64,000 nucleotides of DNA from Fredinandcohnia onubensis. Lineage in GTDB: Bacteria > Bacillota > Bacilli > Bacillales > Bacillaceae_L. The stretch lies in NCBI RefSeq assembly GCF_031181385.1, contig NZ_JAPSKV010000003.1, forward strand, positions 1 through 64,000, in the 5' to 3' direction. Within the stretch, counting starts at the first letter, position 1; the number at the start of each line of letters is the position of its first letter. The position numbers were made by a program, and so were the translations under genes. Below are positions 20,749 to 24,032 of this stretch, in pieces. The notes below the pieces were generated by a model that was not told the origin of the DNA, did no database searches, and was given only the letters and a program-made list of their open reading frames with translations.

Positions 20749-21141
20749 TTATTTTTTTGAACTAGTTGAAGTCGACAAGACGTTTTCAAGGGGAATGATA
20801 ATTTCTTCCTTGTCAACATTCCCTTCAATTTTTTCAAGGACTTTATTTTGTTCAATAATCAATAAAGAAGGATATTCTTCAATCTTATACTTCGTATACA
20901 ATCTATTATCTTCAGAAGAAACAACCTTCATATTTGCGATTTCAGTGGGGAATTTATTTCTAAGCTCCAGTAAGGCATCATAATAATTACTTTCATTGTG
21001 AAGATTATCTTCATCGGAAAAAAAGATGATTTGTTTTTCATCTATTTCTGGCAATGTAGGCTGCGTTTGGTATGAAGAACATGAGGAAAGGAAAATAAAA
21101 GAAAGTATGATTAGGGTAAATGCTTTCATTTTGTTAATCAC
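20749..21141 (-). CDS. small lipoprotein with thioredoxin-like tail (Slp-like?)
   Basis: Lipobox FLSSCSS. Locus equivalent to slp of B. subtilis (pdhD-slp-SR1-speA), but on the minus strand here. Confidence 0.6.
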   Translation of the reverse strand: MINKMKAFTLIILSFIFLSSCSSYQTQPTLPEIDEKQIIFFSDEDNLHNESNYYDALLELRNKFPTEIANMKVVSSEDNRLYTKYKIEEYPSLLIIEQNKVLEKIEGNVDKEEIIIPLENVLSTSTSSKK

Positions 21142-22119: not shown

Positions 22120-22291
22120 TCCTACTCCAGATTGATTAATTATGTATGTTTTTATCTCTAAGTTACTACTATTCTAGCATTTAATGGGTAATACTTACAA
22201 CTTTCTGTTATATGACGTGAATATGCATCGTAATTCAACAAGTATGATAAAAAACAACTAAAAATAATTTAAAATGATATACAATTAACTA

Positions 22292-22320
22292 TTGACGAAC
22301 CAATTGTGTCATACTATTAT
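22292..22320 (+). promoter_or_regulatory. SR1 promoter with embedded CcpN-like operator
   Basis: TTGACG-17 nt-TATTAT. TGTGTCATACT (22305-22315) matches the recalled CcpN consensus TRTGHYATAYW at all positions. Confidence 0.75.
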
Positions 22321-22390
22321 ATAAATAACATAACATAAAACGTTTTCAAAGGAAGTTTAGTAATCTACTTTTCGAAAGGGGCTTTGAATA

Positions 22391-22507
22391 ATGGGTACAA
22401 TCATCTGTCAAACTTGTAGTGAAACAATTGAACATTTTGAGTATGAGAAGGTTACAACACTTTATTCAACTTGCGACCACTGCGATTGCAATCACGAAGA
22501 GAAATAA
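22391..22507 (+). CDS. sr1P: GapA-binding peptide SR1P (38 aa)
   Basis: MGTIICQTCSETIEHFEYEKVTTLYSTCDHCDCNHEEK with RBS GAAAGGGG. Below the ORF-track length cut-off. Confidence 0.88.
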   Translation: MGTIICQTCSETIEHFEYEKVTTLYSTCDHCDCNHEEK

Positions 22508-22520
22508 CTTTATAAAAAAT

Positions 22521-22553
22521 AAAAGCATGCAATAATATTTGCATGCTTCTTTT
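22521..22553 (+). terminator. Rho-independent terminator of SR1
   Basis: AAGCATGCAA/TTGCATGCTT stem followed by CTTTTT. Confidence 0.85.
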
Positions 22554-22559
22554 TCGTTT

Positions 22560-24032
22560 TTATTTAATGGCTTTGTGTTCTTTTATAACTCGCAAGTGTT
22601 TTAAATCATAATCCTCGGGTCCTTGGACGGGGAGACCTGCTTCAATATTGGTTTGAATATACGTTAAGTTCTCCTCAGTTATAATCTCTCCAGGGATGAA
22701 AATTGGAATACCTGGTGGATACACCATGATAAATTCAGCAATTACTCTGCCAGCGGATTCTTCAAATGGAACAACTTCAGTTTCAGAATAAAATGCATCA
22801 CGAGGCGATAAAGCAAGTACTGGGATATCTGGAAGTAAAACTTCTGGTACAATTCTAGATTCTGAAAGATGTGAGACTTCATCAGATAAATTCGCAAGCG
22901 CAGCAATTAGTAAATCAGCTTCTTTCTTCGTATCACCGGGTGTTACGATACAAAGAATGTTGTATAGGTCGGACATTTCCACTTCAATATTGTATTTTTC
23001 ACGAAGCCAAACTTCTGCATCTGAACCTGTAATACCAAGGTCTTTTACAGAAATTATTAATTTTGTTGGATCAAAGTCAAATGTAGCTATAGAGCCTAAA
23101 ATTTCGCGTCCGATACATTTAAGTTTTTCTATTTCATTGATCTTTTCCCTCATATAGTTGGCTAATTGAATCGTTTTTTCAATCAGGTCATATCCTTCTG
23201 TCACTAATTGTCTTCTCGCAACATCCAAAGATGCTAATAATAAATAAGATGTAGACGTTGTTGTTAGCATACTTAAGATCGTTTGAACCCTGTTAGCTGA
23301 CACTAAGCCTTCTCTAACATTTAAAATAGAGCTTTGTGTCATTGAGCCTCCTAGCTTATGGACGCTTGTTGCAGCCATATCTGCACCGGCCTGCATGGCA
23401 GATAGCGGTAGCCCATCATGAAAGTGAATATGAACGCCATGTGCTTCGTCAACGAGTACTGGTACTTCATAAGAATGAGCAATTTCTACAATCTTCTTTA
23501 GGTCAGCAGCAACACCGAAGTAGGTTGGATTAATCACTAGTAATCCTTTTGCATCTGGATGCTGTTCAAGCGCTTTGTTAACAGAGTCTGTAGTGATTCC
23601 ATGAGAAATTCCCAAAGTATTATCAATCTCAGGATGAATGAAGATTGGCACTGCTCCTGAAAACACAATGGCTGACATAACAGACTTATGGACATTTCTA
23701 GGTACAATGATTTTATCTCCAGGGCCACATACAGCCATGACCATTGTCATAATTGCCCCACTTGTACCTTGAACGGAAAAGAAAGTGTGATCTGCACCAA
23801 ATGCCTCAGCTGCAAGGTCTTGAGCTTGCTTAATGATGCCTTTAGGTTGGTGGAGATCATCTAAGGGTCCGATATTAATGAGGTCAATTGAAAGGGCATT
23901 GTCCCCAATAAAGTTACGAAATTCTGGATCAATCCCAGCGCCTTTTTTATGTCCAGGTATATGGAATTGAGTTGGGTTCTTTTTTGAGTGTTCAATAAGA
24001 CCAGTAAATAATGGTGTTTCATTTTGTGACAA
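22560..24032 (-). CDS. speA: arginine decarboxylase (Orn/Lys/Arg decarboxylase class I)
   Basis: FHIPGHKKGAG, PLP motif SVHKLGGSMTQSS. High recalled similarity to SpeA. Confidence 0.93.
   Translation of the reverse strand: MSQNETPLFTGLIEHSKKNPTQFHIPGHKKGAGIDPEFRNFIGDNALSIDLINIGPLDDLHQPKGIIKQAQDLAAEAFGADHTFFSVQGTSGAIMTMVMAVCGPGDKIIVPRNVHKSVMSAIVFSGAVPIFIHPEIDNTLGISHGITTDSVNKALEQHPDAKGLLVINPTYFGVAADLKKIVEIAHSYEVPVLVDEAHGVHIHFHDGLPLSAMQAGADMAATSVHKLGGSMTQSSILNVREGLVSANRVQTILSMLTTTSTSYLLLASLDVARRQLVTEGYDLIEKTIQLANYMREKINEIEKLKCIGREILGSIATFDFDPTKLIISVKDLGITGSDAEVWLREKYNIEVEMSDLYNILCIVTPGDTKKEADLLIAALANLSDEVSHLSESRIVPEVLLPDIPVLALSPRDAFYSETEVVPFEESAGRVIAEFIMVYPPGIPIFIPGEIITEENLTYIQTNIEAGLPVQGPEDYDLKHLRVIKEHKAIK

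Follow-up and report, generated by a model that had tools for sequence, protein, structure and literature searches.

The 64,000-nt window analyzed here, a stretch of Fredinandcohnia onubensis DNA, carries a short transcription unit facing the arginine decarboxylase gene speA. Its features are collected in Table 1. The RNA matches Rfam SR1 (RF02376) at 22345-22552 (+) with 76.3 bits against a cut-off of 45 (E 4.4e-13), covering the full model (positions 1-210 of 210), while the 38-aa peptide translated from ORF 22391-22507, MGTIICQTCSETIEHFEYEKVTTLYSTCDHCDCNHEEK, matches Pfam SR1P (PF13790) with 74.8 bits against a cut-off of 26 (E 5.9e-21). With both scores well above the curated cut-offs, the resemblance to SR1P proposed in the initial annotation is borne out, and the promoter (TTGACG-17-TATTAT), the terminator and the adjacent speA that it described are all present. 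On sequence grounds, the locus is an ortholog of Bacillus sr1, a known family. Its earlier description as unannotated applies to the NCBIfam models, which gave no match to the peptide, but not to Rfam and Pfam, whose curated models both detect it. Sub-threshold Rfam matches to Thr_leader and U6atac were discarded, the Thr_leader match being the terminator alone. As SR1/SR1P is already a described family, the locus adds nothing new as to kind; the new points are a conserved, apparently unreported cre-like element near the transcription start and what appear to be signs of metal binding by SR1P.

Table 1. Features of the sr1-speA region in the window
Feature	Position	Strand	Remarks
CcpN-type site I, AATGATATACA	22273-22283	+	5' of the -35 box; 10/11 to TRTGHYATAYW
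-35 box, TTGACG	22292-22297	+	Conserved in alignment
CcpN-type site II, TGTGTCATACT	22305-22315	+	In spacer, touching the -10 box; 11/11 to TRTGHYATAYW
-10 box, TATTAT	22315-22320	+	Conserved in alignment; spacer 17
SR1 small RNA	22327-22553	+	Rfam RF02376; 5' end predicted from promoter geometry, 3' end from terminator
cre-like element, ATAAAACGTTTTCA	22335-22348	+	Core AAACGTTTTCA at 22338-22348; about +8 to +21 of predicted start
Shine-Dalgarno, AAAGGGG	22375-22381	+	9 nt 5' of SR1P ATG; kept in genus
SR1P, 38-aa peptide	22391-22507	+	ATG start; Pfam PF13790; pN/pS 0.057
Intrinsic terminator stem-loop, then T tract	22523-22548	+	Terminator-like on both strands; stem nearly invariant in ten relatives
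speA (arginine decarboxylase)	22560-24032	-	ORF, convergent neighbor; SR1P ORF adjoins speA in related loci

Selection on the peptide was assessed among congeners. Over 28 congeneric pairs from eight genomes, SR1P has a pN/pS of 0.057 (pS 0.445, pN 0.025), and 280 of its 316 differences fall at third codon positions. Because synonymous differences far exceed the others, SR1P is evidently translated and selected as a protein. A chance short ORF lying beside speA behind promoter-like sequence could be argued from the shortness of the ORF and from the frequency of promoter-like sites in A+T-rich DNA (5 found, 3.4 expected). This reading is, however, refuted by the Rfam match, the Pfam match and the pN/pS value, and we consider it close to impossible. 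A short-ORF locus missed under a length cut-off thereby proves to be a conserved regulator.

The promoter carries two CcpN-type sites. The initial annotation had placed a single CcpN-like operator in the spacer and -10 region. Site II agrees with it fully, having no mismatch to TRTGHYATAYW, which we take to be the CcpN motif, but a second site with one mismatch, site I, had been overlooked. Among 97 distinct promoters from relatives, which share kinship and hence are not independent samples, site I occurs with at most one mismatch in 94, mostly 19 nt 5' of the -35 box, and site II in 93, at the same place in 89; the chance level by shuffling is about 2 to 4%. Two CcpN sites are reported at the same places in B. 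subtilis sr1 (PMC8464778), and this arrangement, known from a single model organism, is nearly universal among relatives. The geometry of the promoter makes a 5' end of SR1 near 22327 likely. A rearranged sr1 promoter is seen in a Sutcliffiella-like clade (L028, L029, L080, L086, L099, L102, and L119), in which TTGACA is followed by TAACACATTT, a CcpN-type half site in reverse, and by a TATGAT-like -10 box.

As in the known CcpN regulon of gapB, pckA and sr1, exact CcpN-type sites are found at all three genes in the window genome. The gapB and pckA promoters, which had been suggested as further CcpN targets, each carry an exact site, TGTGTTATACT, and since they do, the operators of the regulon look intact, judged by motif matches. 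The string TGTGTTATACTAAT is identical in the gapB promoter (L049 1429-1439) and the pckA promoter (L051 3001-3011).

The regulator itself presents a discrepancy with this regulon. With a B. subtilis CcpN sequence as the query, proteins with 62 to 80% identity were found in 39 genomes; CcpN is present in 39 of 39 other relatives and in all 8 congeners, whereas no CcpN ortholog was found in the window genome assembly (4.26 Mb). The search for CcpN in the genome, proposed earlier, therefore succeeded in the congeners but not in the assembly. Also not found in this assembly were yqfL, the partner gene of ccpN, and era, glyQ and dnaG, and a 19-kb congener probe gave only repeats and weak short matches in it (40 of 120 candidates scored). 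The genes era, glyQ and dnaG are essential, such that no living Bacillus can lack them. Because these essential genes are equally missing, the absence of the era-glyQ-ccpN-yqfL-dnaG stretch is most probably a gap in the assembly and not a gene loss. Biological loss of ccpN was rejected on the same grounds, together with the outcome of the congener probe and the retention of the CcpN sites. The assembly lacks ccpN, yqfL, era, glyQ and dnaG despite a stated completeness of 100.

Just 3' of the predicted start lies the cre-like element, which agrees with the cre consensus TGWAANCGNTNWCA at 12 of 14 positions, keeping C7 and G8 and having T in place of G2. Its core, AARCGYTTWCA, occurs without mismatch in 80 of the 97 distinct promoters and with no more than one in 89, compared to 0.15% of shuffles, the pattern having been derived from the same data. 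The general cre pattern with up to two mismatches is found in 85 of the 97, with 2.4% expected. In the information profile, most invariant core positions are near 2 bits, and values fall to 0.05 to 0.3 further downstream. The distance from the element to the -10 box has a standard deviation of 1.35 nt, while that to the SR1P start has one of 12.9 nt. As its spacing is fixed to the -10 box and not to the SR1P ORF, the element belongs to the promoter.

CcpA is present in the window genome (530 bits), and a CcpA site is a candidate reading of the element, one to which we would assign a probability of a bit over one half. The competing possibility, that AARCGYTTWCA serves as operator for a different LacI-family regulator or as an RNA element in the SR1 5' end, is a serious one, though we put it somewhat below an even chance. 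It draws on position 2, where 91% of loci have T in place of the G that is usually conserved, on the location of the element inside the predicted transcript, on the stem that the Rfam SR1 model shows there and on the several other LacI-family proteins of this genome. The identity of the element core with the cre core speaks against it, however, as does the spacing fixed to the promoter. An RNA-level role in particular is not favored, given that spacing and the unpaired state of the element in a consensus fold of ten relatives.

Were it a CcpA site, the element would revise, for species outside the B. subtilis group, the accepted view of sr1 control by CcpA. In B. subtilis, the reported CcpA site of sr1 sits some 260 bp upstream (PMC8464778), in contrast to the position just 3' of the start here and in most relatives. 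Most CcpA sites 3' of a start block elongation (PMC3463425), and control by both CcpN and CcpA has been proposed for the gluconeogenic genes of B. cereus (PMC2358912). A literature search gave no mention of a downstream CcpA site at sr1; the 2012 conservation study (Gimpel), Licht 2009 and Heidrich 2007 lay outside its scope.

The paired cysteines of the peptide, which the initial annotation read as suggestive of metal binding, gain support from both conservation and structure prediction. C6 and C9 are invariant in all 96 distinct SR1P coding sequences, each of which carries two or more additional Cys in the tail, and a second CxxC is found in 74 of the 96. In 87 aligned SR1P proteins, the invariant residues are M1, G2, C6, C9, E19, K20 and V21. 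The AlphaFold2 model (pLDDT 85, with a mean of at least 90 in every ten-residue block up to residue 30) has strands at residues 2 to 6, 12 to 16 and 22 to 26, and in this predicted fold two Cys pairs are placed by a three-stranded sheet in a zinc-ribbon layout. SR1P is thus predicted to adopt a Cys4 zinc-ribbon-like fold, and it likely binds metal. The three-stranded sheet, CxxC knuckle and second Cys pair of the model resemble zinc ribbons and the Zn(Cys)4 sites of Fur and PerR; in contrast to these, SR1P has only 38 residues and the second Cys pair varies in spacing. Against solved structures, the best fold matches were to Fur/PerR, none of them significant (best E 0.39). Sequence searches of the PDB gave nothing significant, and a few members of the SR1P family match Zn_ribbon_RPB9 (best E 7e-6). 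No paper linking SR1P to zinc was found in a literature search. The predicted Cys4 fold makes the metalloprotein status of SR1P directly checkable.

Whether the RNA also acts by base pairing was approached through its fold and through ahrC, the gene for which is present in the window genome. The locus had been described as encoding a dual-function RNA, and its coding for SR1P holds. For the base-pairing half, the match to ahrC mRNA did not exceed that of shuffles in tests that are weak and uncalibrated on the B. subtilis pair: the duplex of the window genome's own pair has a z of -0.87, with contiguous helices at p 0.33 to 0.37, and ten genome pairs showed no consistent signal against dinucleotide shuffles. 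Pairing with ahrC, proven for B. subtilis SR1, may or may not occur here, and dual function of the locus therefore rests on homology with B. subtilis. The SR1 RNA folds slightly better than shuffles (z -1.27), and covariation in ten relatives outside the terminator comes down to one pair with double changes, the structure otherwise being without support.

These data bear on a narrower view of the locus, that it is here only the mRNA for SR1P, with the peptide function kept and base pairing either lost or shifted to different targets. In its favor, it is mainly the codons that are conserved, with third-position changes dominant; the leader diverges outside the ribosome-binding region and the cre-like element; the RNA is weakly structured beyond its terminator; and its match to ahrC is at chance level. 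However, these tests of complementarity are of low power and uncalibrated on the proven B. subtilis pair, and nine Bacillales homologues that were tested are reported to keep both SR1 functions (PMC8464778). We therefore see an mRNA-only locus as a minority possibility, at roughly one chance in three. Substantial complementarity of SR1 to kinA is limited to nine species (PMC8501984).

Taken as a whole, the observations are best explained, with high confidence, by an sr1 ortholog with two CcpN-type sites, an SR1P-encoding RNA of ~227 nt and, presumably, B. subtilis-like function, a cre-like second input and a Cys4 fold. A sigma-A-type promoter with the two sites would drive this RNA, ending at a terminator common with speA. 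By analogy with B. subtilis, CcpN would repress the sr1 promoter on glucose and SR1 RNA would be made during gluconeogenic growth; SR1P would bind GapA and, in RNA decay, strengthen the link of GapA with RNase J1, and SR1 RNA may in addition base-pair with mRNAs that it targets. The cre-like element may add a second carbon input, probably through CcpA blocking early elongation, and SR1P may fold around a Cys4 metal site. A bolder combination, in which CcpN at two sites and CcpA at the downstream element doubly lock sr1 across most sampled Bacillaceae, unlike the distant B. subtilis cre, and SR1P is a zinc-ribbon microprotein, is tentative and in our estimate falls short of an even chance. If true, the metal state could bear on the link between GapA and RNase J1.

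The likeness to B. subtilis SR1/SR1P extends to the two CcpN sites (5' of the -35 box and in the spacer), the SR1P ORF, the terminator and the adjacency of speA, and to the presence of gapA, ahrC, gapB and pckA in the genome; SR1P has 38 aa here and 39 aa there. The gapA gene lies in a cggR-gapA operon. Lys 332 of B. subtilis GapA is decisive for SR1P binding (PMC8152036). The GapA of the window genome (L048) ends in ...YIASKGL, like that of B. stearothermophilus, and its residue 332 is Ser when Met is counted as 1, a count that may not equal B. subtilis numbering.

As the terminator is terminator-like on both strands, it is probably common to sr1 and speA. Of 100 related genomes, 88 have a member of the SR1P family, usually as a single copy, and one copy was found in each of the 8 congeners. 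The closest named relatives by SpeA (92 to 93%) are Bacillus sp. HNG, B. sinesaloumensis, Bacillus sp. REN16 and B. timonensis AF060A6, and at the loci of named relatives, gathered with speA as the query, the ORF for SR1P adjoins speA in the same convergent arrangement. A count of 139 SR1 homologues, all in Bacillales and with identical location, has been reported (PMC8464778, PMC8152036).

Between pdhD and sr1, at 20749-21141 (-), the window encodes a small putative lipoprotein. By position and lipobox only, we presume that it may be the counterpart of B. subtilis slp. Some Bacillales genomes have extra, divergent paralogs of SR1P that lie apart from the main copy: G068 carries two in tandem (L178, G068:C1:132900-134400), and G037 and G054 each have a single second copy. 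A good CcpN site is missing from the paralogs in L179 and L181, whereas one of the G068 pair has one.
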